From Streptomyces guryensis (GTDB lineage Bacteria > Actinomycetota > Actinomycetes > Streptomycetales > Streptomycetaceae): a stretch of 64,000 nucleotides of DNA. A model generated the notes under the pieces. The model made no database searches. It was not told where the DNA came from and was given only the letters and a program-made list of their open reading frames with translations. Location of the stretch: positions 1 to 64,000 of the forward strand of contig NZ_JAJSBI010000039.1 in the NCBI RefSeq assembly GCF_021261325.1. Reading direction: 5' to 3'. Made by a program: the position numbers and the translations under genes. Below, piece after piece: positions 44,609 through 62,754 of this stretch; position 1 is the first letter of the stretch, and the number at the start of each line of letters is the position of its first letter.

Positions 44609-45862
44609 TCAGGGGGTATCCAGGGAGTTCGCCTCCCCACCGAACCAAGCATCCATGGCGCCTCGACCTCGCGTGCCTGCGTCGGGCATGAAGTGCGTGT
44701 ATGTACGCAGAGTAAAGCCAGGGTCGGCGTGCCCAAGCCAGCGGGCGAGGGAGACGATCGACTCGCCTGCTTCGAGCTGGACACTGGCATAGGTGTGGCG
44801 CAGGGCATGGAAGCCGAACTCGCGCGACGGCTCCCACTTGCTCCCGCCCGAATCGGAGTCCACTTTGCCGATCAGTCCCGCGGAGGCGAGCGCGTGCTTC
44901 CAGAGACGCCTGTTCCATGTATCGCGGTTGCACGCGCGCCGCTGCCGGGTAGCCAGGAACAGCGGGTAAGCACGCGGAGCCCAGTCGATGCGCTGCCGTT
45001 CGTTCTGAGGTTCGTGAGGGCTCTCCCACGGGAGCTTCACCGTGACCGGCTGCCAGCGCTTCGCGTGCTGTTCGATGCTGGCCAGGACGCCGGGTGCCGC
45101 ATCAACTACTCGCGTCTTGCCGCCCTTGGGAAGCGCAAAGAAGAGGTGGCCGTCGATCATGCAGACCTGACGCCGGACATGCACGACCCCGTTCTCCGCA
45201 TCAAGGTCCTCCGGAGACAGTCCGAATACCTCGCCCTGGCGCAGGCCGAGCCCCACCGCCAAGTCGACTGCGAGGCGGTATTGCTCCGGGAGCCCAGCGC
45301 GTACCCGCATCGCCTGCTCGCGCGACCACGCCCGCGCCTTCTGCGCAGGCTTGGCCGGCGGCCGAGCGGTGCGGCTCCCCTTCATCGGATGCTTCACCAG
45401 CCTGCCGTCCTCGACGGCGGCCTGGAGGATCGTAGAGAGATGCCCCCAGGTGGTGCGGATCGTCCCGGGCGACAGAGTCTCCTCCATCCGGGCAACCCAT
45501 TCCCGGAGGGCTGGCGCAGTGATGGCGTTCAGCGGCAGCGACCCGAGCGCCGGGAGCACGTGTCCCCATATTCGTCGACGCGCCGCATCTCGGGTGGTTG
45601 CGGCGTATCGCTGGTGCGGCCACCATCGATCCTCCACGTACGAGCGCAGCAGGATCGTTCCTTCACGCGGGTCGACGAACTCCTGCCGCGTCACGTCGGT
45701 TTGAGCATGAGCGAGCCACTGCTTGGCGTCGGTGAGCTTGGTGAAGCTGCGGGCACGGACGCCGGGGATGCCGGCGACCTTGTAACGCTTCCCCTTGCCG
45801 TAGAGCTTGGTCTTCTCCTTGGTTCGTTTGCTGATCCAGCGGTCTTCTATATGTCCTGGCAC
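44609..45862 (-). CDS. Site-specific tyrosine recombinase (ICE integrase)
   Basis: A 417-aa integrase. The N-terminal SAM-like and Arm-binding domain is lysine/arginine rich. The catalytic residues are visible: Arg208 in GLRQGEVFG, His352-x-x-Arg355 in FHALRHTYA, His378 in LGHADPG and the nucleophile Tyr388 in RTYTHFM. It is related to phage/AICE integrases. The GTG start at 45862 follows AGGGAG. The gene reads toward the chromosome, and its 3' end lies 63 bp from the DUF3046 start, so attL probably falls in 44550-44608. The excisionase-like gene diverges from it at 46136. Confidence 0.93.
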   Translation of the reverse strand: MPGHIEDRWISKRTKEKTKLYGKGKRYKVAGIPGVRARSFTKLTDAKQWLAHAQTDVTRQEFVDPREGTILLRSYVEDRWWPHQRYAATTRDAARRRIWGHVLPALGSLPLNAITAPALREWVARMEETLSPGTIRTTWGHLSTILQAAVEDGRLVKHPMKGSRTARPPAKPAQKARAWSREQAMRVRAGLPEQYRLAVDLAVGLGLRQGEVFGLSPEDLDAENGVVHVRRQVCMIDGHLFFALPKGGKTRVVDAAPGVLASIEQHAKRWQPVTVKLPWESPHEPQNERQRIDWAPRAYPLFLATRQRRACNRDTWNRRLWKHALASAGLIGKVDSDSGGSKWEPSREFGFHALRHTYASVQLEAGESIVSLARWLGHADPGFTLRTYTHFMPDAGTRGRGAMDAWFGGEANSLDTP

Positions 45863-47085: not shown

Positions 47086-47514
47086 TTAAGACGCCGGAGG
47101 ACGTGTGGGAAACGCCGCCTGCCCCATCGCCCGTTCTACCGCGATCTGGATGACAACCCGTTCCGGGTCCGGGGCCGGCGTACGCCCGTATCGCTCTCCG
47201 TATCGGGTGACAGCTTCCTGGACCGCAGAAGCGTCGGTACGGACCTCAGCCGTACCTTCGAGCGTCGCCCAGCGACCGCCGTCGACCTGGCACACCGCCA
47301 CACGGGCCGCGCCGCCGCTCGCAAGGACGTTGGCGACCTTCCTACTGAATTTGCGGGTGATAACTCTGGCTATTCCCGCATCGGCATCGATCGTCACTCC
47401 AACAGGCACCACGTGCGGTCGACCATCGGGGCGCAATGTAGTCAGAGTGCACAGATGGTACTCACGCCAGAACTTCAGGTAGTCATCGGACCGACTCAAT
47501 AGCGCGTTCGACAT
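47086..47514 (-). CDS. PPOX-class F420/FMN-dependent enzyme
   Basis: A 142-aa split-barrel flavoprotein of the pyridoxamine-phosphate oxidase/F420 class. It starts MSNALLSRSDDYLKFWREYH, has TLTTLRPDGRPHVVPVGVTI (the conserved strand-turn) and TRKFSRKVANVLASGGAARV, then RWATLEGTAEVR. ATG 47514 is chosen; the frame to 47568 is less conserved. Such enzymes reduce or oxidise small substrates or scavenge oxidised flavins. It stands alone between the CRISPR-like array and an AT-rich region; it may be cargo or captured chromosome. Confidence 0.85.
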   Translation of the reverse strand: MSNALLSRSDDYLKFWREYHLCTLTTLRPDGRPHVVPVGVTIDADAGIARVITRKFSRKVANVLASGGAARVAVCQVDGGRWATLEGTAEVRTDASAVQEAVTRYGERYGRTPAPDPERVVIQIAVERAMGQAAFPTRPPAS

Positions 47515-47627
47515 GGCCGAAAGCTTAACCTCGCCCGCTGCCCGAACTGTCCCGAAGTGACCGCCCACACACTCACTTCCGACCGGGGATTTAGTACGGA
47601 TTCATCGACTTATATCGTAAGGCAACG

Positions 47628-47777
47628 ATGTCAAATCGTCTCAGATCGATAACAAGTCCCCCGTTCAACATCAACCATGAAATTTATGTACTAAAGCTTG
47701 AAACCGCAGCTCAGCGGGATCATTCGAAGATGATTTCGGTCGATTTGAAACACTTGAGGCCCTTGATCATTTCATGA
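47628..47777 (+). CDS. Possible 49-aa ORF in AT-rich segment
   Basis: ATG 47628 opens a 49-codon frame (MSNRLRSITSPPFNINHEIY, then KLETAAQRDHSKMISVDLKH) in a stretch of about 200 bp that is far richer in A/T than its surroundings. Codon use is unlike the neighbours and the ribosome binding site is weak (AAGG). It could be chance, a transferred gene, or a regulatory region. The remainder of 47515-48074 shows no better gene. Confidence 0.25.
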   Translation: MSNRLRSITSPPFNINHEIYVLKLETAAQRDHSKMISVDLKHLRPLIIS

Positions 47778-48074
47778 TTCGGGCGAGCGGATCAGGCTTT
47801 TCAAGACACGGCCCGTGTGAATACTTGTCTACGTCCAACAGGTGCTCGGCGGCTCCATCGGAGCGGCTCATGGGCCCTCAGATTCTCGTTTGCTCCAGTG
47901 ACATTGACGTGCTGAGGCGAGCTGGAGGTCAGGCACCCTGGCCCGTGCAAGAGGGCACGGCGAGTGCGCAGTCATCGGTGGCTGCGGCCGCTCGCTGCGC
48001 TGTGAAGAGGACGTCATCACTCGGGCGGTCGCGCCCGGCTCGGGGGAGCCATTTCCGGTTGAAAGGTTTACTTC

Positions 48075-48683
48075 ATGTGGTCGGGAAGAGGCAGCCGTGG
48101 CGCCGCTGAGACGAGCCGTCGTAGGTTCGGACGCTGGCGCACAACCGGGAATCGGACGGTGGAGCGAAACCTCCACCGCCGGCTACGGGAAGAGCTGCGC
48201 AGCCTGAAGGTCACCCCTCCTCTGGACGTAGAAGAGCTGGCCAAGGCTCTTAGCGAGAGGCGTGGACGCCCCATCGTCCTCCGGCCTTTTCCCCTGGAGA
48301 AGCCTGGACCGACAGGCCTGTGGGTCGATATGACCGTGAGGGACGTGGTCCTCTACCAGGAGGAGACGACCTGCCTGCACCAGCGGCAGATCATCCTCCA
48401 CGAAGTCCTCCACATCCTCGTCTCCGAGTGGGGGGAAGCCCCAGAGTCTCCGGAAGCCGCCGTCGAGGACTGGGCCGCCCTGGTCCCCGTGCTCGACCCC
48501 GCGCTGATCCGGCGGGTTGCCCGTCGTTGCTCGTACGAGGACCCGGAGGAGTGCTGGGTGGAACTGGCTGCGACGATCATCCTGGAGTGGTCCTCGGTGG
48601 TCGACGCGCTCCCACCTCTGTCGGAAGACCCAGAGGTCCGTCGGGTACAGGCAGCTCTGGGCGACCGGCGAGGGTGGCTGTAG
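48075..48683 (+). CDS. ImmA/IrrE family metallopeptidase
   Basis: A 202-aa protein with the Zn-peptidase motif HEVLH at residues 109-113 (RQIILHEVLHILVSEW), followed by an acidic helix WAALVPVLDP that may supply the third ligand. N-terminal residues are basic. In ICEBs1 the ImmA protease cleaves the ImmR repressor in response to DNA damage or a peptide signal. ATG 48075 has AAAGG 8 nt upstream. It is followed 3 bp later by the MAB_1171c-like gene in the same operon, and a double-HTH repressor stands convergent 2.4 kb away. Confidence 0.85.
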   Translation: MWSGRGSRGAAETSRRRFGRWRTTGNRTVERNLHRRLREELRSLKVTPPLDVEELAKALSERRGRPIVLRPFPLEKPGPTGLWVDMTVRDVVLYQEETTCLHQRQIILHEVLHILVSEWGEAPESPEAAVEDWAALVPVLDPALIRRVARRCSYEDPEECWVELAATIILEWSSVVDALPPLSEDPEVRRVQAALGDRRGWL

Positions 48684-48686
48684 ACC

Positions 48687-49802
48687 GTGGCGAACTATCT
48701 CCTGCTGATCACCGCCGCTGCCACCGTGTGGAGGCTGTATCTGTGGTCACGCGCTCCTCATGACGCTCCCACCCGGTCGGTGGCGCTCACCCTGCTGAGC
48801 CTGAGCCTGTCGAATACAGTCGCCAGGCCCGGGGGCGCCTCCGGCCTCGACATAGTGGCGGGGCACGACATCGCGAAGCTGGTCCAGAACCTTTTGCTGC
48901 TGCTGGCGTGCTACTTCCTGATGTGCTTCTACCTGTACTCGGCCGAAAGGCCGACAGCCCGGCGTCGCGCCCGGGCGGAAGGCGTCGTCGTGGCCCTGGT
49001 GTCCGTGACGATCACTCTCGCGGCCGTGACCGTGTCGCCGGGGGCACTCAGCAAACCGTTCCGCACGGTTGACATGACGATCCCGCAGGTCGCCTTCTTC
49101 TACCTCTGCGCCGGCCTGTACATCACGTACGCGATCGGGGTGGCCGGATGGTGGTCCGCAGGCTATGCCCGTAAGTCGTCTCGCCCTCACGCCACCGGGC
49201 TGTGGATGACTGCGATCGGCCTCGGCACGATGGCGGTGGCTTGCGCCGTCCGGGCGGTCTTCGTCGCCGTCCGCTTCTGCGGGGGATCTGTGCCCCACAA
49301 GCTCACTACCTTGGCCGCGCTCTTGCTGGTGGTGTCGGGCCTGCTCTTCATGGTGGGCATCACTTATTCGGGCGTCCTCGCGAGGATCACCGCCACGCGG
49401 CTGTGGCTGCGTCGGCGCCGGGATCACCGTCGACTGGCTCCGCTGTGGCAGCTGCTGATCGAGGTCTACCCGGAGAACCAGCTGAGGCCCGCGTCTCGTA
49501 CACCGTGGGATCAGTGGCGCGCCCGTGGCGTGCACCGCCGCTACCACCGGCGGATAGTGGAATGCCGGGATGGACTGGTCCATATCAGTCCCTACCTTGT
49601 GGGCAAGGATGATGAAGCCGACCTGCTGCACCTGGAGCCGGTCCAATTGGCCAGACGGCTCCGGCGTGCCTCCGCGGCGATCCAGAAGGGTGCGCCAGTA
49701 CCTGCAAGGGCAGTTCCTCTGGCAGTGCCGCAGGGGGACGAACGGGACTCGGATGTCGACCAGTTGATCGCGGTGTCGGAGGCACTGCGGCTGACCGCGT
49801 GA
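48687..49802 (+). CDS. MAB_1171c-like membrane protein
   Basis: A 371-aa protein. Six or seven hydrophobic segments cover residues 1-235 (for example NLLLLLACYFLMCFYLYSAE and FVAVRFCGGSVPHKLTTLAA). A cytoplasmic C-terminal domain with RRRRDHRRLAPLWQ and RRIVECRDGLVHISPYL follows, a phrase typical of the MAB_1171c putative transporter family. The GTG start at 48687 is 3 bp beyond the ImmA-like stop. The combination of a membrane part with a C-terminal domain suggests sensing or transport of a small signal for the protease/repressor pair, which is inference. Followed 31 bp later by the amidohydrolase gene. Confidence 0.75.
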   Translation: MANYLLLITAAATVWRLYLWSRAPHDAPTRSVALTLLSLSLSNTVARPGGASGLDIVAGHDIAKLVQNLLLLLACYFLMCFYLYSAERPTARRRARAEGVVVALVSVTITLAAVTVSPGALSKPFRTVDMTIPQVAFFYLCAGLYITYAIGVAGWWSAGYARKSSRPHATGLWMTAIGLGTMAVACAVRAVFVAVRFCGGSVPHKLTTLAALLLVVSGLLFMVGITYSGVLARITATRLWLRRRRDHRRLAPLWQLLIEVYPENQLRPASRTPWDQWRARGVHRRYHRRIVECRDGLVHISPYLVGKDDEADLLHLEPVQLARRLRRASAAIQKGAPVPARAVPLAVPQGDERDSDVDQLIAVSEALRLTA

Positions 49803-49833
49803 CCGCAGAAGAACATGGAAGGCGAGAGGCGAC

Positions 49834-51024
49834 ATGTTGATCACCGCCGGCCGGGTCCTGACCGGCTCCGGGACGTACGTCGAGGACGGGGCCGTCTGTA
49901 TCGAAGGTGACTCGATCACCGCCGTCGGGCCGCGTGCCCAAGTCGCTGACCACTCCCGCGTGCAGGAGGCCGACCTCTCGTTTCCCGATGCGACGCTGAT
50001 GCCCGGTCTCATCGACTCCCACGTTCATGTGGTTTTCGACGGCAGCACCGAAGTACTGGCCGCCTTCTCCGGATCGAGCGACGAACAACTGCTGCAAGAC
50101 ATGCGCCGACGCGCGGAGCAGCTCCTGTCGAGCGGTGTAACCACCGTCCGCGACCTGGGAGACCGCAACGGCCTGGCCCTGCGTCTGAGGGAGGAGATCA
50201 GCCGGGACGCCATTCCTGGCCCTTGCATCGTGGCTGCGGGCACGCCGCTGACCACGCCCGGAGGCCACTGCTACTTCCTCGGCGGCGAGGTCTCAGGCGA
50301 AGCCGCGGTCCGTGATCTCGTGCAGCGCAACTTGGCGGCTGGCGCCAGGGTGATCAAGGTGATGGCGAGCGGCGGAGGTCTGACGAAGGACGGGCCGAAG
50401 AGCTGGCAGAGCCAGTTCACCACGGCCGAGCTGCGGGCCCTGGTGGACGAGGCGCATCAGGCCGGCGTGCCGGTGGCCGCGCACGCACACAGCGCGGATG
50501 GCATCTCGGCGGTCGTGGATGCCGGAGTGGACACCATCGAGCACTGCACGTGGATGACCGAGGAGGGTTTCGGGCTGCGCCCGGACGTCCTGAAGAAGAT
50601 CGTCGAGCAGGGCATCGCGGTATGCCCGGCCGTCGGTCCGCACTGGCAGATGGCGGCCCGCGTCTTCGGTGAGGAACGGACGGCCACTCTGTTCGGACAG
50701 GTACGTCAGATGGCCGAGGCCGGCGTCCGGCTCATCGCCGGGACTGACGCCGGAGTGCAGCGGACTGGGTTCGACGGCTCGCTCGCGGGAGCGCTCGGTT
50801 TCTACGCGCACCTGGGTATCTCGAACGCCAAGGTCATCGATATGGCGACGTCTGAAGGCGCAGCAGCTTTGGGTCTGGGCTCCACGACCGGCAAGATCGC
50901 TCCCGGCTACCGCGCTGACCTGCTCCTGGTCGACGGCGATCCGCTCGCCGATCTCGCAGCCCTGAAGGAGGCCAGGGCCGTGTGGGCCTCTGGCCGTCGG
51001 CACGAGCCGAACTCTGGCGAATAG
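49834..51024 (+). CDS. Metal-dependent amidohydrolase
   Basis: A 396-aa amidohydrolase of the imidazolonepropionase-like group. Metal ligands and catalytic residues are complete: H63 and H65 in DSHVHV, the bridging Lys at K175 in VIKVMASGG, H217/H219 in AAHAHS, H237 in EHCTW and D305 in AGTDAG. The start MLITAGRVLTGSGTY and the end GYRADLLLVDGDPL are typical. Substrate unknown; lactones, amides or peptide-like signals are possible. Intact active-site residues on a mobile element suggest selection for function. A 12-bp hairpin separates it from the convergent XRE gene. Confidence 0.88.
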   Translation: MLITAGRVLTGSGTYVEDGAVCIEGDSITAVGPRAQVADHSRVQEADLSFPDATLMPGLIDSHVHVVFDGSTEVLAAFSGSSDEQLLQDMRRRAEQLLSSGVTTVRDLGDRNGLALRLREEISRDAIPGPCIVAAGTPLTTPGGHCYFLGGEVSGEAAVRDLVQRNLAAGARVIKVMASGGGLTKDGPKSWQSQFTTAELRALVDEAHQAGVPVAAHAHSADGISAVVDAGVDTIEHCTWMTEEGFGLRPDVLKKIVEQGIAVCPAVGPHWQMAARVFGEERTATLFGQVRQMAEAGVRLIAGTDAGVQRTGFDGSLAGALGFYAHLGISNAKVIDMATSEGAAALGLGSTTGKIAPGYRADLLLVDGDPLADLAALKEARAVWASGRRHEPNSGE

Positions 51025-51049
51025 ACACCCGCGGCCGTCAGCCGACTGG

Positions 51050-51089
51050 AGCGCCTGTTCCTGGGGTTAACGCCCTCGGAACAGGCGCT
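51050..51089. terminator. Bidirectional terminator between amidohydrolase and XRE gene
   Basis: AGCGCCTGTTCC (51050-51061) pairs perfectly with GGAACAGGCGCT (51078-51089), with a 16-nt loop. It overlaps the stop codon of the minus-strand XRE gene by two bases. Confidence 0.85.
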
Positions 51090-51972
51090 ATTCGTTTGTC
51101 TCGGGGTCTTCCTTGTCCAGCTCGGCTGCAAGGTCGTTCAACATCGACAGAACGTTGGCCGACAGGCCTTCGGGTTTGATCCCGCGGGCCCGGACGCGGC
51201 GTACCTTCCCCTGTTGGGCGGCAGACATGAGGCGCAGTCCCTCGTAGACCTGCCGTACGACAGCGTCGTCCGGCTCGAAGTACAGAGGGGACACCCCGAA
51301 GGTGTGCGCGAGACCTTGGCGGACGACGGGGGCGGCCTCTTCGTCCAAGCCTGTCCGAAGTCGCTCTACCTCCTGGGCGGAGATCACGTGCGCCCCCGCG
51401 TAGGCGTTCACTGACGCAGCGATGTCCTGGTCACCTGGCGCCGTCTGGTCGGGATACGAACGCTCCAGAATCAGGGTGATCTTCTCTGCCAGAGTGCTGG
51501 GTGGTTCTTCAGCAACGAGGGCTGTGGCGGACACACCCTCTTCTTCACTCTGAGCCGCCCCGAAGGACCGTTCCTGTGCCTGGCTCAGCTCGTCCTCGGT
51601 CACCCCGTAGGCCCGAGCCAGAGCCGGGATGTACCTCTCTTTGAGGCGCCGCACCCCTTGCTCCGCCCCTGCCACGGGGCCGTCGCTCTTGGTCCCGATG
51701 ACCTCGGCCATCTCGTACCGGTAGAGGCCTGCGTCGCAGCGCAAGTCCCGGAGATCAGGCAGCCCGTCGCGTGGGAACAGCTCGTCCAGGTCCTGCTTGA
51801 GGACCCGGGCCAGGGCCGACAGTTTCTCCTGGTCGGGCTCGGATGAGCCAAGCTCCCACCCCGCCACCGTCGAATCGCCGACGCCTACACCCGCGGCTAC
51901 GTCGGCCTGCGAGATCTCGGCGGCTCGCCGTACCGAGCGCACACGACCTCTATCGAAGCGTCGAGCAGGCAT
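51088..51972 (-). CDS. Double-HTH XRE family repressor (ImmR-like)
   Basis: A 294-aa regulator. The first HTH_3 domain is at residues 10-65 (AAEISQADVAAGVGVGDSTV, AGWELGSSEPD), with a second at about residues 75-130 (MAEVIGTKSDGPVAGAEQGV). A C-terminal helical part has LVAEEPPSTLAEKITLILER and a final acidic LNDLAAELDKEDPE stretch. The start at 51972 diverges from the promoter of the rightward operon (52014-52042), placing its operator where it can repress that operon. The ImmA-like protease gene is in the same module. Repressor role is inferred from context. Confidence 0.85.
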   Translation of the reverse strand: MPARRFDRGRVRSVRRAAEISQADVAAGVGVGDSTVAGWELGSSEPDQEKLSALARVLKQDLDELFPRDGLPDLRDLRCDAGLYRYEMAEVIGTKSDGPVAGAEQGVRRLKERYIPALARAYGVTEDELSQAQERSFGAAQSEEEGVSATALVAEEPPSTLAEKITLILERSYPDQTAPGDQDIAASVNAYAGAHVISAQEVERLRTGLDEEAAPVVRQGLAHTFGVSPLYFEPDDAVVRQVYEGLRLMSAAQQGKVRRVRARGIKPEGLSANVLSMLNDLAAELDKEDPETNE

Positions 51973-52013
51973 CAGACCTCGTTTTTCCTGCGAACCGAAG
52001 AAACATCGAGCCG

Positions 52014-52042
52014 TTGACTTTTGGGGAGAATCGCGATAGCTT
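52014..52042 (+). promoter_or_regulatory. sigma70-like promoter of the element's rightward operon
   Basis: TTGACT (52014-52019), a 17-nt spacer, then TAGCTT (52037-52042). A TCGC...GCGA-flanked imperfect dyad covers the -10 region (52031-52053) and could be an XRE operator. It lies 277 bp ahead of the first operon gene, and no other gene is visible in 51973-52318. Confidence 0.6.
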
Positions 52043-52318
52043 CAGCTTAGCGAAAAAAGAGGGACTTCGCACCCCTCGGCTTTCGCTCATCCAGTTGTCC
52101 CCAGCGTGGGGAGCTGCTGGACAGAGGGGACGGCCACGCGCACTCCGCGCACGGATCCCCCTCTCAAAACGCCATCGGCGCCCGAGAGTTCGCACCTCTC
52201 GGACGCCAGACAGCTAGTGATCCGCTGCCCCCGACAGGGGCTCAAGATCACTCACACAGCCGCTCCGCGTCCTTTCGCACGGCACTACGGAGCGGCGTAC
52301 CACATAGAGGAGTCTCGC

Positions 52319-52633
52319 ATGTCCCCTACTGCGGACTGCAACCCGAAGCCGGAGATCGCTTCCGGTCCCGCTGAACGGCTGGCTGCACAGCTGACGTCCA
52401 TGCTGCCTGAGGCCGCAGTCGTACAGGTCCGCTTCCAGGGCCCTCGGACCTTGTGGCCCCACCTGGGACTAACCGCCGTGAACGAACGCGGACACGCCCT
52501 TCGGGTACCCCGTGCGAAGGCGCTCACCATCGCACGATGGATCATCCGCTCATTCCCGCAGGCCGGTTGGGCAGCCTCGGGCGGCCACGCCTTCGACCTG
52601 CGGACGGCTCAGCTGCGTCGGCTGGAAGCGTGA
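52319..52633 (+). CDS. Small hypothetical protein, first gene of operon
   Basis: A 104-aa protein with a compact central region LAAQLTSMLPEAAVVQVRFQ, then GLTAVNERGHALRVPRAKAL and RWIIRSFPQAGWAASGGHAF. ATG 52319 follows GAGGAG at 6-nt spacing, a strong site. The stop codon overlaps the next start (TGATG), so the genes are translationally coupled. No known motif; the mixed alpha/beta character and size suggest a small regulatory or transcription-associated protein. Function unknown. Confidence 0.7.
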   Translation: MSPTADCNPKPEIASGPAERLAAQLTSMLPEAAVVQVRFQGPRTLWPHLGLTAVNERGHALRVPRAKALTIARWIIRSFPQAGWAASGGHAFDLRTAQLRRLEA

Positions 52634-53019
52634 TGTCGGCCGTGGCACCGGTGAGCGCGGATCCGGCCTTTATCGGGCCCACCGAGTTGCAGGGGCTCGC
52701 CGCCGTGGTGAACCTGCTGGCTCAGGCCGGCGGCCTCGATGCCCTGCTGAGCAACCGGCTGTCGGAACCTCGCGATAAGCGTATGCAGTTCGGATACAGC
52801 GATGCGGCTGAGCGGCTGAACATTCCGGAGAAGTGGCTACGTGAGCGCATCTCAACGCTGCCCCATCGAAAGTTCGGGAAGTTCGTGCAATTCACGGAGG
52901 AAGACCTCCGCGCAATTTCCGACATGCATTTCGTAAATCCAGGCGCAGTGTCCGAAAGGGGCGGGGAGTCGGCGTTGATGTCACTTCAGCCCTCTAAGCG
53001 CTCACGCAAGCGCTTCTGA
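52633..53019 (+). CDS. Helix-turn-helix protein (MerR/excisionase-like)
   Basis: A 128-aa protein. The HTH_17-type motif FGYSDAAERLNIPEKWLRER is followed by ISTLPHRKFGKFVQFTEEDL, with the R-K-F-G-K wing, placed around residues 56-95. The C-terminus is basic (RSRKRF). It is coupled to the previous gene by TGATG. It resembles a second excisionase or small regulator; integrative elements often carry two such proteins, one for excision and one for control of transfer genes. Role unproven. Confidence 0.75.
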   Translation: MSAVAPVSADPAFIGPTELQGLAAVVNLLAQAGGLDALLSNRLSEPRDKRMQFGYSDAAERLNIPEKWLRERISTLPHRKFGKFVQFTEEDLRAISDMHFVNPGAVSERGGESALMSLQPSKRSRKRF

Positions 53020-53077
53020 TCTCCTCTTGCGCTCGTGCGCGTACAGCGTGCGACGCCGTGAACATCGCGAGACGCAA

Positions 53078-53668
53078 ATGAGCACTGACATATACAGCCT
53101 CATCGAGGCTGCACATCAGGGGAATTGGTCACCTCTCACGGAAGAGGCGAAGAAGGCTCCCGGAAAGCACTGGGCGGAAGACGCTAGATGCTCCAATCAG
53201 GACATTGACATCTTCGTGCCTCTTGGAGACGGACCCCGCAGAAATCCCGATGCTGTGAAACATAGCTTGGGTGCATCCCTGAACCGTCCGCGCAATCTCT
53301 GTGCATCGTGCCCACTGGCAGTGGCTGCCCGATGCCTGGTGGAATCCCTTAGGGATGACGACGAGTTCGGAATCCGGGCTGGCCTTCTGGCTTCGGAGCG
53401 TTCCGCACTACGCGCTGCGTGGCAGCAGCGGGTGAACGAACGCGCCGTCGAGAGTGCCCTTCAGGGCTGTACCACGGCGCTGAGCAAGGTCGACCGGGAT
53501 GCGGTGATTGCTCGATTCGCGACAGACCCCTCATTGGACCCTGCCGCTGTCGCCCGGGGCCTCGGAGTCACGCACGAGTATCTATTGAAGCTCGCGCGAC
53601 GCTACCGGAAGAAGTCCCAATCCAGCCCGGCCGCGCCCTTGCCCGCTGTCAGCGCTGACGCAGCCTGA
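53078..53668 (+). CDS. WhiB-like protein with C-terminal HTH extension
   Basis: A 196-aa protein. The four cluster cysteines are C38 (ARCSNQD), C75 and C78 (LCASC) and C86 (ARCLVES), the C-x37-C-x2-C-x7-C arrangement of WhiB proteins that hold an O2/NO-sensitive [4Fe-4S] cluster. The usual GVWGG turn reads GIRAG. A further 95 residues follow, with a helix-turn-helix-like VARGLGVTHEYLLKLARRYR. WhiB proteins alone bind sigma factors, so this variant may also bind DNA. ATG 53078 sits after GAGACGC. Encoded on the mobile element, it probably links transfer or developmental timing to redox state. Confidence 0.85.
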   Translation: MSTDIYSLIEAAHQGNWSPLTEEAKKAPGKHWAEDARCSNQDIDIFVPLGDGPRRNPDAVKHSLGASLNRPRNLCASCPLAVAARCLVESLRDDDEFGIRAGLLASERSALRAAWQQRVNERAVESALQGCTTALSKVDRDAVIARFATDPSLDPAAVARGLGVTHEYLLKLARRYRKKSQSSPAAPLPAVSADAA

Positions 53669-53730: not shown

Positions 53731-54090
53731 ATGCCTCAGAACAACCCCGCCGCTCCGGCCTGCGCAAATCTCGGTTTGGCGATCCAGGAAATAGCTCCCA
53801 TGACAGTTCTTGCCCGCGTGTATCCGGAGCGCCGGTCTGTTACCCATCTCTTCGAATCGGACTTCTACCGCATGCTTATCGACCGGCGAACCGAAGAAAG
53901 AGTTGCGCACATGATCAGGCTCTATTTCGGCAATGCCGCCGACTGGCGCTACGCTCATGATTTCTACCTCCCCACCGGAGCGTTGTACCTCACTCCCGAG
54001 CCGCATCAGAACGGGTACATACCGGAGGACGATCTCTCCTTTGGTCTTTCCCTCACCCGTCGCATAGCGATAGCTGACGGGAGCTACTGA
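53731..54090 (+). CDS. Hypothetical protein upstream of initiator gene
   Basis: A 119-aa protein with no signal peptide or TM segment. Its C-terminal two thirds are rich in aromatic residues (LFESDFYRMLIDRRTEERVA, NAADWRYAHDFYLPTGALYL). ATG 53731 follows GGGAG; a second ATG at 53800 (MTVLARVYPERR) with AGGAA would drop 23 weakly conserved residues. The stop overlaps the next start (TGATG). A longer minus-strand frame here (53602-54123) has poorer codon bias and no ribosome binding site. Function unknown; coupling to the initiator gene suggests a replication-related role. Confidence 0.65.
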   Translation: MPQNNPAAPACANLGLAIQEIAPMTVLARVYPERRSVTHLFESDFYRMLIDRRTEERVAHMIRLYFGNAADWRYAHDFYLPTGALYLTPEPHQNGYIPEDDLSFGLSLTRRIAIADGSY

Positions 54091-54953
54091 TGAGCCACGT
54101 AGTGACCGAACTGGTCTGGTCACAGTCGAAGTCGTGCAGGGGCTCGCGTCTTGTCATGCTGGCACTCGCCCGTGAGGCAGACGATAAGGGCCGGGCCACT
54201 CTGACCCTGGACGAGATATCCGGCCTCACCCAGCTGACTGCGCGCTCGATAACGAAATGCATCGGGGAATTGACGACGCTCGGCGAACTCAGCCGCGAGC
54301 GCGGAGGAGGCGCCTCGAACCCCAACAGCTACTCGATACTCCTATTCGACAAGGGCATCGAGGCCCCCGCCGGATCAGAGACAGAACTTCCACCTACGCC
54401 TCCCGAATCAACAGATGAGAGAACAAGGTTCTACGAAGTTTCTTCCCGGAACTCCCCCTCGACGGACGCAAGTGGGAATTCCCTACCACGAGACTGGGAA
54501 GTTTCTTCCTCGCGTGCCCGTGGTGGTAATACTCCCTACGGGAGTATTACCACCACCCAAAAGCAAGCTAGCTTGCTTCGGTCAAGCAGTGAGAAGCAAG
54601 CGCCCCACCAGGAGTCGGTGAGCGTTCCTGAGGGCGCCAAGGATCTGGTAACAGCCATAACCAATGCCGGAATGCTTGTCGGCTGGCGGCTGACCGAATC
54701 GGAGTGGGATCGGGTAACAGCGCTCGCAGCCCGTTGGGGAAATGAACGGCTGGTCGAGATGATCGTGCGGCGATGGAATACAGTCCGCCCCCCACAGTCG
54801 GCCCGCTACCTGCTTCGCATCTGGGCGGACCTCCCGTCACACGCCCCCGCAGCGGCATCCCAAGAAAACGTCGTTCCCCTGCGTCGACCGCCCGGAGGCT
54901 GGGCGCCTTTTCAGAACACAGCAGAACCCAGTGCTTACCAGAACGGATTTTGA
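54090..54953 (+). CDS. Replication initiator-like helix-turn-helix protein (lambda O-like)
   Basis: A 287-aa protein. The N-terminal winged-helix is like that of phage O/DnaD initiators: SRLVMLALAREADDKGRATL, TLDEISGLTQLTARSITKCI, GELTTLGELSRERGGG. A disordered Ser/Thr/Pro-rich middle (about residues 90-180) is encoded by DNA with several perfect palindromes and repeats (54435-54578). The C-terminal part has LTESEWDRVTALAARWGNER and SARYLLRIWADLPS. The pairing with a DnaC-like ATPase gene directly downstream and the internal palindromes are the layout of lambda O and P with the origin inside O. Start TGATG-coupled. Family identity is by layout, not by a named motif. Confidence 0.7.
   Translation: MSHVVTELVWSQSKSCRGSRLVMLALAREADDKGRATLTLDEISGLTQLTARSITKCIGELTTLGELSRERGGGASNPNSYSILLFDKGIEAPAGSETELPPTPPESTDERTRFYEVSSRNSPSTDASGNSLPRDWEVSSSRARGGNTPYGSITTTQKQASLLRSSSEKQAPHQESVSVPEGAKDLVTAITNAGMLVGWRLTESEWDRVTALAARWGNERLVEMIVRRWNTVRPPQSARYLLRIWADLPSHAPAAASQENVVPLRRPPGGWAPFQNTAEPSAYQNGF
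54435..54578. other. Candidate replication origin inside initiator gene
   Basis: Two direct repeats GAAGTTTCTTCC (54435-54446 and 54498-54509) lie 63 bp apart. A perfect 17-bp inverted repeat GTGGTGGTAATACTCCC/GGGAGTATTACCACCAC (54520-54536 and 54540-54556) has a 3-nt centre. A perfect 18-bp palindrome AAGCAAGCTAGCTTGCTT follows at 54561-54578. Three dense palindromic motifs in 144 bp of coding DNA are far beyond chance and fit an iteron/hairpin origin. Confidence 0.6.
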
Positions 54954-54955
54954 TC

Positions 54956-55678
54956 ATGGCAGAGCCGGAACGCGTAGGCAGCGCCAGGTCAATGCGCCGC
55001 ATGGAACGAATACTCGCCGCGAAAGGAATTCAGGTGTCCGACAGCACCGCCGACGACTCACGGGAAGAAAACCCGGGGGACCGCGAATGGCACCGCCGAG
55101 CCCGCGCCGAATACGCACTGAACCGGTGGCGGACCGCGGCCCCTCCCCGGTTCAGCAACGCTGAGGCGACGATCCCGGAGGTCACCGCGTGGGCTGATCG
55201 CGCTCTCACGGAGAACTCCGCCGCTGGCGCTCTCCTCCTCACCGGCCTGACCGGTACAGGGAAGACGCACCAGGCGTACGGGGCTCTGCGCAGGATCGCG
55301 GCCGGCGGCCCGGACCGGTTCGAACTGATCGCAGTCAACTCGGCGGACATGTACGGCAACCTGCGTCCCTCACAGGTGATGGGCGCGGCGGAACGGGAGC
55401 TGCGAAAGCTCAGCGAAGTTCAGTACCTGCTGCTTGATGACCTCGGCACGGCGAAAACCTCGGAGTGGACCGAGGAGGTGACGTATCGGCTCATCAACTA
55501 CAGGTACAACCACTGCTTGCCGACGATCATCACGTCCAATCTGCCAGCCCGTGACGACAACGGGCCGGACCTGACCGACTTCGTCGGGGCCCGGGTGGCA
55601 AGCCGCCTGGCCGAGATGGTGACCAGCCTCGTGCCGATGATCGGCGCCGACCGGCGGCGCGGCGGGAGGGCGGCCTAA
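54956..55678 (+). CDS. DnaC/IstB-like helicase-loader ATPase
   Basis: A 240-aa AAA+ protein. Walker A is GLTGTGKTHQAYGALRR near residue 100 and Walker B is YLLLDDLGTAKTSEW near residue 160, with sensor-1 TIITSNLPAR and arginine-finger region GARVASRLAEM. These are the features of DnaC, lambda P-adjacent loaders and IstB. An N-terminal Arg-rich helix (VGSARSMRRMERILAAKG) probably binds the initiator or helicase. ATG 54956 is 2 bp past the initiator stop; the longer frame from 54773 overlaps the upstream gene. It probably loads DnaB at the element origin. Confidence 0.88.
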   Translation: MAEPERVGSARSMRRMERILAAKGIQVSDSTADDSREENPGDREWHRRARAEYALNRWRTAAPPRFSNAEATIPEVTAWADRALTENSAAGALLLTGLTGTGKTHQAYGALRRIAAGGPDRFELIAVNSADMYGNLRPSQVMGAAERELRKLSEVQYLLLDDLGTAKTSEWTEEVTYRLINYRYNHCLPTIITSNLPARDDNGPDLTDFVGARVASRLAEMVTSLVPMIGADRRRGGRAA

Positions 55679-59103: not shown

Positions 59104-59262
59104 ATGGCGAATGCATTCGCGCGGCCTGATCCGGCCTTGAACGGCCGGATTGCCCTGCTCAAGGTGGTCGGAACCCTGCCAAACACGACCTTCCCCGAGG
59201 AGCCGTACCACTACTTCGAGCTGTGCCAGAGCTTCGACATCCACAGCGACGATTCCGCGCTC
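59104..59262 (+). pseudogene. Truncated plus-strand ORF facing a truncated gene
   Basis: From ATG 59104 the plus frame reads MANAFARPDPALNGRIALLK, then VVGTLPNTTFPEEPYHYFEL and CQSFDIHSDDSA, with coding-like third-position GC. Beyond about 59262 it continues only as the antisense of the minus-strand gene 59211-60641. It looks like the 5' part of an unrelated gene joined at a recombination scar. Confidence 0.35.
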
Positions 59263-60641
59263 GCCGACAGGCCGGTGCCCTCGCCGTCCCGGATACGGCG
59301 GCGCCACATGTGGCCGAAGACGTCCTCGGCGAGGGTAAGCAGCCGGTCGTGCGAGGCGAGGTTGCGCGAGAGCGCGCGCAGCTGGATGGTCCGCTTCAGC
59401 AGCTGCGCCGAGAAGTCGTGCATGGACCACGTCAGCGGCGGGCCGAGCCGCTCGCTGCCCTGCACAACCTCGCGCGTCATCCGGCTGGTGATACGGCCGC
59501 GTTCGACGAGGCGTTCCATGACGGCGACGGGGCACGAGCAGCCGTCGTTGGTGGCCTGGTGGCGCATCAGGTCGTGGACGAGGATGGCGGCGACAGAGAG
59601 GGAGAAGTACTCGGACTCCAGTTCCTGTCCCGTCGTACGCCAGGGGATGTCCTCCAGGGGCCAGCGGTCGGGGTCGAAGCGGGCGATGCCCGACCAGTAC
59701 TGCTGGGTCAGCTCCCAGCGCAGCCGCAGCGCCTCGGCGAGCTTCTGCTGTTCGGCGTTGAGCAGGCCCAGGGTGAGGGTGCGCTCGGAGAACAGGTCCT
59801 GGATACCGTCGAGGGCGACCACGGTGAAGTAGAGATACGGCACCGGGTCGGCGGCACCCTTGGGCTGCGGCCCGATGGGTTCGTCGGTCTCGACCTCGGG
59901 GGCGTCCTGCACCAGGCTCCACGACCAGCCGCACTCGAAGAACTGGTTCTCGTCCTTGAGGCCCGCCTGGACGTCGATACCGAGGGAGAGGCTCTCCACG
60001 ATCGCGGCGCGCAGCGCACGGAAGCGGCTCTGGTACATGCTCAGCACCTGCCGCTGCGACAGCCGTCCCTGGCCGAGGAGTTCGACCAGGTTGCGGCCCT
60101 GGGCGGAGTCGGCGTCGAAGGCGTTGACGGTGAAGGAGCGCAGCAGGCTCACCATGGCGGCGGTGAGCCGGTTGCTGGTGGCCGAACGCAGCTCGGCGAT
60201 CGTCTCCTGGATGTCGCTGCGTCTGGTCCTGGTCTCGTAGACCTTGAGGAAGCCGAGCGTCGCCAGGCAGAGAGTGATCGACATGGAGAAGGAGTCGACC
60301 ACGCCGAGCCGGCGCTGTTCCTCGGTGGGCTCCCCCTGGGCCTTGTCCTGGGATCCGAAGTAGTAACCCCCGGCGAAGGTGGGCCTGTTGTCCTCGCCGG
60401 TGTGGGTGCGCATGAAATCGGACGCGGCCTTGACGAGGTTGGCCGGGAGGTCGAGCCGCCCACCGGCCTTCCTCAGGGCCTGCTGGACGTCCTCCTGTGT
60501 GGTGTCCGGGTCGTCCAGCCGGAACGCGGGGATCTCGAAGTCCTGCGCCAGCTGCGCCCCGAGTCCCGCCAGGGCGCCTGACGTGGAAACGCCTAGAATC
60601 CCCAGCTCTCTGTTCACTGTGAGCCGCCTACGGGCGGTCAT
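59211..60641 (-). CDS. Hypothetical protein, ends probably truncated
   Basis: A 476-aa predominantly helical protein. The body from GALAGLGAQLAQDFEIPAFR to MWRRRIRDGEGTGL is coherent, with FNEDQ-like low cysteine content and a SCPVAVMERLVERGRITSRM segment. The N-terminus (VNRELGILGVSTS) uses unusual codons such as CTA. The C-terminus SASAESSLWMSKLWHSSK is antisense to the facing ORF at 59104-59262. Both edges look like junctions. No ribosome binding site is convincing at ATG 60641; a GTG at 60618 is an alternative. I do not recognise the family; it may relate to conserved actinobacterial clusters of unknown function. Confidence 0.5.
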   Translation of the reverse strand: MTARRRLTVNRELGILGVSTSGALAGLGAQLAQDFEIPAFRLDDPDTTQEDVQQALRKAGGRLDLPANLVKAASDFMRTHTGEDNRPTFAGGYYFGSQDKAQGEPTEEQRRLGVVDSFSMSITLCLATLGFLKVYETRTRRSDIQETIAELRSATSNRLTAAMVSLLRSFTVNAFDADSAQGRNLVELLGQGRLSQRQVLSMYQSRFRALRAAIVESLSLGIDVQAGLKDENQFFECGWSWSLVQDAPEVETDEPIGPQPKGAADPVPYLYFTVVALDGIQDLFSERTLTLGLLNAEQQKLAEALRLRWELTQQYWSGIARFDPDRWPLEDIPWRTTGQELESEYFSLSVAAILVHDLMRHQATNDGCSCPVAVMERLVERGRITSRMTREVVQGSERLGPPLTWSMHDFSAQLLKRTIQLRALSRNLASHDRLLTLAEDVFGHMWRRRIRDGEGTGLSASAESSLWMSKLWHSSK

Positions 60642-60692
60642 GTTTGCGCCCGGTGGGGACCAAACCACCCGAAATGGTCTCGCCTGCCACAG

Positions 60693-61761: not shown

Positions 61762-62754
61762 GTGAACAAAGCCATACAAGGCGGCCTGGCGCTCCTCACA
61801 GCAATGATCGTTTCGGCTATGGCCCTACTGACCACGTTCGGCGGGGCTGACAGCGCCTCCGCCCAGGAAACCGGCCCAGGGGGCGACATCCTGACGGACG
61901 CCCCGGTGCCGGGCTGGGTCCGTGAACTCATCAATAAGCATGCAGGCGAGTGCCCGCAGGTCACGGCCTCCCTCTTGGCGGCTCAGCTCTTCCAGGAGTC
62001 GAGCTTCAACCGGGACGCGGAGTCCAAGGACAAGAACGGCAACCCGATCGCACTGGGAATCGCGCAGTTCACGCCTGCGACCTGGGCCGCTCACGGTGTT
62101 GACGGCGACGGAGATGGGGTCAAGGACGTCTTCAACCCCGCCGACGCTATCGCGGCGCAGGCGAAGTACGACTGCACGCTTGCCGAAGAGGTCAAGGGGG
62201 TGCCCGGGGACTCGACGGACAACATGCTCGCCGCATACAACGCGGGCGGCGGTGCCCTGATCCATTTCGGTGGTATCCCGCCTTACTCCGAGACGCGCGA
62301 CTACGTCCGGAACATCCGCCAGCTGGCGGCGAAGTGGGCCGCCGCAGTCCCGCCGAATGCCCCGGCCGGCAAGGGCGCTGCCCGCGCCATCGCCGCCGCG
62401 AAGACGGCCCTGGGCACCTGGTACCAGTGGGGCGGCAGCTGCATCTCGCCGTACAAGGGCGAGGGCGGCTGCGACTGCTCGTCGCTCACCAAGATGGCCT
62501 GGTCCTCAGCGGGCGTGAACCTCCCCCGGGTCACGTACGACCAGGTGCACGCCGGGACCGCCGTCACGAGCATTGCTCAACTCACCCCGGGTGACCTGTT
62601 GTTCAGTGTCCCCGGCAGTGCTGGGCCTGAGCACGTGGGCATGTACATCGGCGACGACCAGGTCATCGACGCCCCTCACACAGGGGCCCAGGTGCGGATC
62701 AAACCGCTCAGTTACTGGAAAGCGCAGATTATCGCGATGCGGCACGTCGGCTGA
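61762..62754 (+). CDS. Bifunctional lytic transglycosylase and NlpC/P60 peptidase (VirB1-like)
   Basis: A 330-aa exported cell-wall hydrolase. A signal anchor covers residues 5-28. The SLT-like lytic transglycosylase (residues 45-190) has catalytic Glu79 in LFQESSFNRDAES and ALGIAQFTPATWAAHGVDGD. The C-terminal NlpC/P60 domain has Cys239 in GGCDCSSLTKMAW, His291 in PEHVGMYIGDDQ and His306 in APHTGAQV. Two-domain enzymes of this type make the opening in peptidoglycan for Gram-positive conjugation machines. The GTG start at 61762 lies 10 bp past the lipoprotein gene. Confidence 0.92.
   Translation: MNKAIQGGLALLTAMIVSAMALLTTFGGADSASAQETGPGGDILTDAPVPGWVRELINKHAGECPQVTASLLAAQLFQESSFNRDAESKDKNGNPIALGIAQFTPATWAAHGVDGDGDGVKDVFNPADAIAAQAKYDCTLAEEVKGVPGDSTDNMLAAYNAGGGALIHFGGIPPYSETRDYVRNIRQLAAKWAAAVPPNAPAGKGAARAIAAAKTALGTWYQWGGSCISPYKGEGGCDCSSLTKMAWSSAGVNLPRVTYDQVHAGTAVTSIAQLTPGDLLFSVPGSAGPEHVGMYIGDDQVIDAPHTGAQVRIKPLSYWKAQIIAMRHVG

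Follow-up and report, generated by a model that had tools for sequence, protein, structure and literature searches.

How is an integrative and conjugative element (ICE) of Streptomyces held silent, and what may release it? The question is raised by a stretch of 64,000 nucleotides from Streptomyces guryensis (contig NZ_JAJSBI010000039.1, positions 1 to 64,000), referred to below as the window. Beside the excision, replication and transfer operon of an ICE, four genes lie next to each other. They encode an ImmA/IrrE-like metalloprotease (48075..48683, plus strand), a DUF6545/MAB_1171c membrane protein (48687..49802, plus strand), a prolidase/carboxypeptidase-like amidohydrolase (49834..51024, plus strand) and a repressor of the XRE type (51088..51972, minus strand). 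A first-pass annotation had placed these four open reading frames, all of which are present, and had read them as a signal-gated ICE switch. A switch is well supported by the conservation of the block, by a conserved divergent promoter, and by the downstream excisionase, replication and type IV secretion system (T4SS) genes. The best explanation of the block is a master switch of the Streptomyces ICE, in which a phage-type repressor is joined to a widespread actinobacterial signalling trio.

A repressor fused to an EspR-like domain

The XRE protein comprises 294 amino acids. A first helix-turn-helix (HTH) domain (residues 10-66) is strong and resembles P22 c2, and a second HTH-like domain (74-144) is weak. 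A linker (about 145-158) of variable length follows, with a model confidence below 50 at residues 146-155, and leads to an EspR-like domain (159-281). The double HTH had been described before; the third domain had gone unmentioned. The C-terminal domain aligns to stand-alone EspR homologues with an hhalign E value of 1.7e-19, and its modelled structure matches EspR (VIA Z 9.2, root-mean-square deviation (rmsd) 3.7, 81 aligned). A profile of the stand-alone HTH proteins (15 sequences) matches EspR of M. tuberculosis at 3.3e-28.

The basic DNA-recognition region has been lost from the fused EspR domain. Its mean net charge is +3.84 in stand-alone proteins (32 rows) and -3.02 in fusions (40 rows). 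Because the region went from basic to acidic, the fused domain probably no longer reads DNA, a task which would fall to the XRE head. We infer that the domain serves as a receiver instead, that ImmA or DUF6545 would recognise it, and that the repressor would have acquired it as a handle.

A search of 150 genomes with the double-HTH head alone found 26 matches, distributed over 25 genomes; every one carries an EspR-like tail. Twenty-five loci were examined, leaving out G028:C555 at a contig end. An ImmA gene occurs in all 25, which comprise 11 of the amidohydrolase type and 14 others; in the latter the ImmA profile scores ranged from 47 to 83 bits. The profile detected DUF6545 in 11 of these 14 loci and Pfam in a twelfth, L232; L226 and L228 gave no match.

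The control region between repressor and transfer operon

A strongly conserved stretch separates xre from the first ICE gene; it comprises a palindrome, TTGAC, a spacer of 17 nt, TAGCTT and a second element. The candidate operator is the 15-bp palindrome CCGAAGAAACATCGA (51995..52009), whose symmetry is kept across variants; relatives carry the symmetric forms CCGAGGAAACCTCGG and CTGGAGTAGATCCAG. Symmetry reaches 9.7 of 14 at this place, the highest of the offsets tried, with a median of 3.3 (33 of 39 sequences anchored). The promoter TTGACT-17 nt-TAGCTT (52014..52042, plus strand) points towards the excision, replication and transfer operon, in agreement with the promoter that had been proposed beside the repressor. 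The pattern is present in 35 of the 39 sequences of class A, the loci with a convergent EspR-tailed regulator, including the window. Its spacing is always 17 nt, and at most 2 of 39 sequences showed it in any of 200 base shuffles. A generic scan for E. coli-type promoters did not report the promoter at 52014-52042. The second element, ATAGCTTCAGCTTAGCGAA (52036..52054), covers the -10 region and the presumed start and forms a second symmetry peak; it has one match in the window and 0 in shuffles.

The XRE operator shows no enrichment ahead of the ImmA operon, where its mean best score is 6.0 against 6.1 in shuffled sequence. A feedback loop of XRE on the ImmA operon has been rejected for this reason. 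The 81.7-kb contig contains no further copy of comparable score (21.2 at 51995, the next 14.2). With promoter and palindrome conserved next to xre and no such enrichment before ImmA, a single divergent promoter is the most likely target of the XRE protein; the operon behind it has the excisionase gene in second place.

A 12-bp inverted repeat, AGCGCCTGTTCC / GGAACAGGCGCT, lies at 51050-51089 between the convergent amidohydrolase and XRE genes. Read by eye it looks like a two-way terminator; a computed scan of the region did not list it.

Co-occurrence of the components

The survey used one genome per species and kept the best 80 of 191 DUF6545 relatives. Its loci are partly the same places as separately fetched genus loci (L027/L064, L031/L060, L033/L080), and the two sets were not summed. 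An ImmA gene was detected within 1.2 kb upstream of DUF6545 in 76 of the 80 loci and 66 have an amidohydrolase gene no more than 2.5 kb downstream of it. The order ImmA-DUF6545-amidohydrolase-XRE, whose conservation had been named as a check of the switch, recurs in 36 of the 80, a share which is inflated by a ranking query rich in class A. Class A amounts to 39 loci: the 36 with four genes, 2 lacking the amidohydrolase and 1 in which only the tail was recognised. A stand-alone EspR-like gene lies upstream in the same direction in 31 loci, 21 with amidohydrolase (class B) and 10 without (class C). Ten loci have neither regulator type at the expected position. Of the 80 loci, 71 have an EspR-like domain at most 5 kb from DUF6545, and the 1.597 Mb of sequence contains none elsewhere. 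Because class A fusions had served to build the profile, the class A half matches by kinship.

Homologues of ICE replication and transfer genes were present in the fetched flanks of 35/39 class A, 6/21 class B, 0/10 class C and 0/10 other loci. Outside class A the set consists of EspR-like HTH, ImmA and DUF6545. An occurrence of the genes in non-mobile loci without the repressor had been named in the first-pass annotation as a finding that would speak against the switch. The trio does occur without ICE genes in its flanks. Most of these cases carry a stand-alone EspR-like regulator, and the coupling to a DNA-binding protein therefore survives.

A reverse search starting from EspR yielded 52 matches in 26 of 61 genomes. 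Among 30 of these, examined with flanks of 1.5 kb, ImmA was present in 24 and DUF6545 in 22. The genome of the window contains three places matching the EspR profile: the XRE gene of the window, a gene beside ImmA-DUF6545 (contig C56) and a gene beside ImmA (contig C3). Five places in this genome match the ImmA profile; four of them, including the ImmA of the window, had gone into building it, and each of the five adjoins an EspR-like or DUF6545 gene. Distribution in the genus Streptomyces is patchy, with DUF6545 (E 1e-30) in 19 and the amidohydrolase (E 1e-60) in 32 of 150 genomes. Class-wide, DUF6545/MAB_1171c was detected in 37 of 197 genomes (26 above the curated cut-off) and 17 of 90 genera. 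Thirty of these loci, taken from a longer list, were examined; 29 have ImmA and 3 an amidohydrolase.

The class B module of L107, L108 and L120 (about 5.2-7.7 kb) adjoins lasso-peptide-type genes, namely PqqD-like, transglutaminase-like and asparagine-synthase-like ones, identified by Pfam in L108 only. A further neighbouring gene in these three loci is presumably GntR-like.

The ImmA-DUF6545-amidohydrolase operon

The ImmA gene is separated from DUF6545 by 3 nt and DUF6545 from the amidohydrolase gene by 31 nt. These gaps are consistent with co-transcription of all three genes; the membrane protein and amidohydrolase genes had already been regarded as one transcript. The identification of the first gene as ImmA/IrrE-like is supported by H109, E110 and H113 of the HEVLH motif and by E159, which are invariant in 18 of 18 aligned ImmA-like sequences including the window. 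The window protein has 0 matches in Pfam. Peptidase_M78 (PF06114) was matched weakly by 12 of the 18 aligned members (best E 8.7e-4), and searches of the PDB by profile and by single sequence found nothing for ImmA.

The membrane protein is assigned to MAB_1171c/DUF6545 by scores above the curated cut-offs (NF042915, 303 against 100 bits; also 75.6 against 24.4 bits). Its model (pLDDT 82) predicts seven transmembrane (TM) helices and a cytosolic, helical C-terminal domain. Lysine and arginine counts in 61 aligned sequences fit an N-out/C-in orientation, and the cytosolic part bears a conserved RR..ECRDG motif. In a fold search with the model, all 50 matches listed were 7TM receptors and none was a transporter (Z 14.3 to 12.1). 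The best match (VIA Z 14.3, rmsd 4.9, 224 aligned) is near the background of helical bundles. A profile search of the PDB found nothing for DUF6545. The model indicates a receptor-like topology, and no more than that.

The amidohydrolase (Amidohydro_1, 157 bits) has as its closest PDB match the L-arginine carboxypeptidase Cc2672 (3mtw, 1.5e-44), followed by prolidases. Its active site, previously called complete, contains seven candidate residues, which presumably form the metal centre and are kept in 64 or 65 of 65 amidohydrolases including that of the window; the exception is a gap. The kinship to L-arginine carboxypeptidase and prolidases and the retained metal-centre residues point to a peptide or an N-acyl amino acid as substrate rather than a lactone. 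The enzyme resembles amidohydrolases of the Xaa-Pro dipeptidase type in its metal centre, but differs from Xaa-Pro dipeptidase proper, for its score against the model NF051886 is 231.5 bits, below the cut-off of 500.

The place between DUF6545 and XRE is variable. In the 14 fused-XRE loci of other type it is taken by a HAD enzyme in 6 and a NUDIX enzyme in 3 (L222, L232, L235), and it is empty in 3. One further locus has a P450 gene on the other strand, and L229 shows a different gene order. Pfam identified 2 of the 6 HAD enzymes, the remaining 4 being recognised by near-identical starts, and all 3 NUDIX enzymes. As many loci lack the amidohydrolase or have another gene in its stead, the arrangement does not depend on it. 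Two chromosomal loci (L049:9994-11406 and L132:11089-12258) encode a FAD-dependent monooxygenase after ImmA-DUF6545, in the place of the amidohydrolase.

Upstream of ImmA, a region which corresponds to 47568-48075 of the window, the motif CACGTA[CA][TG]GTC was found in 19 of 40 relatives (never in more than 1 of 40 over 200 shuffles). The exact motif does not occur in the window. Its presence in relatives suggests another regulator, perhaps shared with the divergent gene for an F420-dependent PPOX-class oxidoreductase (47086..47568, minus strand; TIGR03618, 95 bits, cut-off 79). Homologues of this oxidoreductase are present in 31 of the 39 fetched class A loci.

A mosaic of cassette and repressor

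The XRE protein, excisionase, replication protein and DnaC-like protein of the window share up to 77, 87, 84 and 94% identity, respectively, with one ICE group. ImmA, DUF6545 and the amidohydrolase share up to 77, 78 and 79% with another group (L025, L026, L054), which has XRE proteins of 52 to 62% and, where found, DnaC proteins of 46 to 47% identity to those of the window. The junction lies between the amidohydrolase and XRE genes. Trees agree on this placement, with support of 100/100 for DUF6545 and of 98 and 95 for XRE (quick method). In the DUF6545 tree, which leaves out L112 and L127 (split reading frames), the 39 class A rows including the window are set apart, jointly with L053 and L079 (no regulator found there), by a branch supported at 100/100. 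The lineage of the trio differs from that of the repressor and backbone; the trio therefore moves as a cassette. If the proposed switch works, the XRE repressor must stay compatible with a swapped cassette.

A proposed mechanism and its rivals

The following chain of events is put forward tentatively, at somewhat less than even probability. The 7TM protein DUF6545 would bind an extracellular or membrane-borne small molecule, and its cytosolic domain would release or activate ImmA. ImmA would recognise the EspR domain and cleave or inactivate the XRE repressor. The promoter would open, and the ICE would excise, replicate and transfer. The carboxypeptidase/prolidase-type amidohydrolase would destroy, or less likely make, a peptide or N-acyl amino acid signal and might in this way set a threshold or mark cells already carrying the element. 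A protease gated by a signal is plausible, with independent support from the EspR-domain fusion, the predicted 7TM topology and the exchangeable hydrolases.

Several observations weigh against the chain. The ImmA and XRE genes form separate convergent units, and the XRE operator gives no sign of feedback on the former. Compared directly, the XRE tail matches EspR weakly (phmmer, E 0.04), the GPCR-like fold match of DUF6545 is not significant (Foldseek, E 0.05), and the NCBI family name of DUF6545 is putative transporter. Overall, 14 of the 80 loci lack the amidohydrolase, 2 of them among the 39 of class A, and in other XRE fusions its place goes to HAD, NUDIX or nothing. ImmA is absent in 4 of the 80 loci, two of them at contig ends and two (L099, L105) with full flanks. 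No EspR-like domain is nearby in 9 of the 80 loci; class-wide, EspR accompanies DUF6545 in only 21 of the 30 loci examined; and the flanks of 5 of the 30 EspR loci lack both ImmA and DUF6545.

The hydrolase and its variable place may be read in further ways. An antibiotic or xenobiotic sensor of the BlaR1/BlaI type, in which DUF6545 would detect a toxic peptide or amide, ImmA would eliminate the regulator, the hydrolase would detoxify the compound and the ICE would escape from stress, is rather unlikely. The alternation of amidohydrolase, HAD, NUDIX or, in L049 and L132, FAD monooxygenase in one place would suit detoxification, as would class B modules that can adjoin biosynthetic genes, e.g. 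the lasso-peptide-type set in L108. Excerpts of a study on M. abscessus describe MAB_1171c mutants as affected in biofilm formation and drug susceptibility (PMC8707978). However, a search ahead of the hydrolase operon did not find the XRE operator, which means that removal of the regulator would not induce the hydrolase as well, and several modules have an empty enzyme slot. It is unlikely, and slightly more so, that EspR-ImmA-DUF6545 forms a pan-actinobacterial three-component system, composed of a 7TM receptor, a soluble metalloprotease and its DNA-binding substrate, which ICEs captured by fusing the EspR domain to their repressor and now use to sense potential recipients. A small molecule would reach the receptor only if neighbours lack the element, the hydrolase would destroy this signal, and the EspR domain would serve as a degradation or receiver tag on the repressor. 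Receptor and hydrolase would set the specificity and be exchanged between elements as one cassette. A role of the hydrolase in self-recognition is attractive because the immunity factor Pif of pSAM2 is a NUDIX protein and NUDIX enzymes occupy the slot in three relatives. Against it stand the switches without an enzyme and an operator which does not control the hydrolase.

DUF6545 could also be a transporter for export or import of a signal or drug, without direct contact to ImmA, as the NCBI family name and the treatment of MAB_1171c as a transport gene in excerpts of the M. abscessus paper (PMC8707978) would have it; seven predicted TM helices, a conserved cytosolic domain and a list of 50 fold matches that are all 7TM receptors, though with values near the helical background, make this quite unlikely. 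The trio might also be cargo which merely lies beside the repressor, XRE being regulated otherwise, e.g. by RecA or host factors. Trios or pairs without ICE genes in their flanks (15/21 class B, 10/10 class C) and the different lineages of trio and XRE/backbone in the window would agree with cargo. Yet all 25 fused-XRE loci examined have ImmA, across at least two ICE backbones and with differing enzymes, and the repressor bears the same domain that partners ImmA-DUF6545 elsewhere; cargo is decidedly improbable. Pairs of XRE and ImmA have been annotated as toxin-antitoxin systems, which counts for an addiction module (XRE with an M78-type partner) that stabilises the ICE, and the stand-alone HTH proteins match an NCBIfam repressor/antitoxin model weakly, far below its cut-off. 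Regulation fits better with an intact protease motif, a membrane protein, an enzyme and a repressor facing excision genes, and an addiction module is very improbable. For TnSmu1 of S. mutans, one section is titled as evidence against immR being an antitoxin, and immR became deletable once conjugation genes were lost (PMC10233336).

Further candidates were rejected. A defence system was dismissed after PADLOC had matched XRE alone of the four proteins, at E 0.1 and to HTH parts of the head. Phage origin was dismissed as well: DUF6545 was unmatched in phage records and none was confirmed in viral contigs. Plasmid records contain DUF6545 in 2 cases. Ccr1 of S. coelicolor was discarded, as both EspR and IrrE are absent from the text of PMC11272600.

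The ICE backbone

The host genome has 10.49 Mb. From 44.6 kb on the window contains the ICE, next to genes that are presumably recA and recX, and the end of the contig falls inside or near the element. A tyrosine integrase (44609..45862, minus strand; Pfam Phage_integrase, 1.3e-12) is encoded at this side. The controlled operon starts with a gene for a protein of 104 amino acids without family (52319..52633, plus strand), which has homologues in the loci of relatives. Its start (52319) was picked by eye from GAGGAG-ATG, and a Pfam search of 52265-52630 gave no match. The second gene encodes an excisionase-like HTH protein (52633..53019, plus strand; phrog_1840 excisionase, 5.6e-10), which matches Pfam HTH_17 weakly (0.025). 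Its start (52633) was likewise picked by eye, and the query ran from the second codon. A WhiB-like regulator (53027..53668, plus strand; Pfam Whib, 3.3e-10), a replication initiation protein (54090..54953, plus strand; phrog_6643, 1.3e-13) and a DnaC-like helicase loader (55034..55678, plus strand; phrog_50, 8.5e-33) follow. An NlpC/P60 and transglycosylase protein (61762..62754, plus strand) is probably the cell-wall hydrolase of the T4SS. This farther part of the element also encodes a VirB4-like ATPase (AAA_10, 2.7e-7) and, at 70423-71757 of the contig, a coupling protein (TraG-D_C, 3e-25).

Within the T4SS region, the opposite strand at 59211-60668 (minus) has a high coding score and no clear family; this gene is possibly cargo. 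The same possibly applies to a 666-aa pentapeptide-repeat protein to the right of the T4SS genes in L046 (contig C33, 74092-76092). In L038 (9095-10672) an integrase contains an HTH of the LacI type (Pfam LacI, 1.3e-12, within the phage integrase).

Relation to known systems and significance

Switches composed of ImmA and a repressor are already known on ICEs. In ICEBs1 the protease gene lies directly beside the repressor gene, as one unit. ImmR represses the excisionase and downstream genes, ImmA cleaves ImmR, and RapI has been proposed to raise ImmA activity, according to excerpts of PMC6540685. As in ICEBs1 and TnSmu1, an XRE repressor of an excision/transfer operon and an HExxH protease of the ImmA type share one element in the window. 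The repressor differs from that of both by its two HTH-like domains and EspR-like C-terminus. Unlike ICEBs1, the protease gene belongs to a separate convergent operon, and DUF6545 and the amidohydrolase are encoded between protease and repressor. The logic of metalloprotease and repressor also recalls IrrE/DdrO of Deinococcus; DdrO aligns with the first HTH domain in the model of XRE (Z 10.0). The differences are the additional domains of XRE and the membrane protein encoded alongside the protease. BlaR1/BlaI/BlaZ unites a membrane sensor, a metalloprotease, a repressor and a hydrolase in one system, with sensor and protease in one membrane protein. The window combines the same kinds of components; its sensor and protease are separate reading frames and the hydrolase operon lacks the operator of the repressor. 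Stand-alone partners are homologous to EspR of M. tuberculosis, and the fusion carries its fold, but lacks a basic recognition region and has a different DNA-binding head.

Among actinobacterial elements, Pif of pSAM2 is a NUDIX hydrolase which operates on the recipient side to block redundant transfer, by a mechanism that is not known, and actinomycete ICEs (AICEs) share a cluster of HD phosphohydrolase, Nudix hydrolase and XRE regulator, a related theme (both in excerpts of PMC3218068). The switch is like Pif in placing a hydrolase on an actinobacterial conjugative element, with NUDIX in three relatives. It is unlike Pif in the window itself, where the slot is occupied by an amidohydrolase and no NUDIX domain. 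An HTH-Nudix protein is mentioned for Streptomyces ICE01 in an excerpt of PMC9513070. A term search in the text of the Streptomyces ICE paper PMC10711302 gave no match, and the titles and abstracts retrieved by searches of open-access papers yielded no description of the arrangement. As far as these searches show, the EspR-ImmA-DUF6545 set, its capture by an ICE via domain fusion and the exchangeable enzyme are new.

EspR-like HTH, ImmA/IrrE and 'putative transporter' families, which are usually annotated apart, are thus linked as one module, found on ICEs and beside biosynthetic genes. If the proposal is true, a function is obtained for DUF6545/MAB_1171c, a membrane family that a single paper mentions by name in the open-access collection searched. 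The EspR-domain fusion offers a testable substrate for the ImmA protease. With the exchangeable hydrolase, recipient recognition by Streptomyces elements (conjugal immunity) would become directly testable. The trio of receptor, protease and regulator is widespread in actinobacteria and may be a general way by which an outside signal switches on genes or mobile elements.

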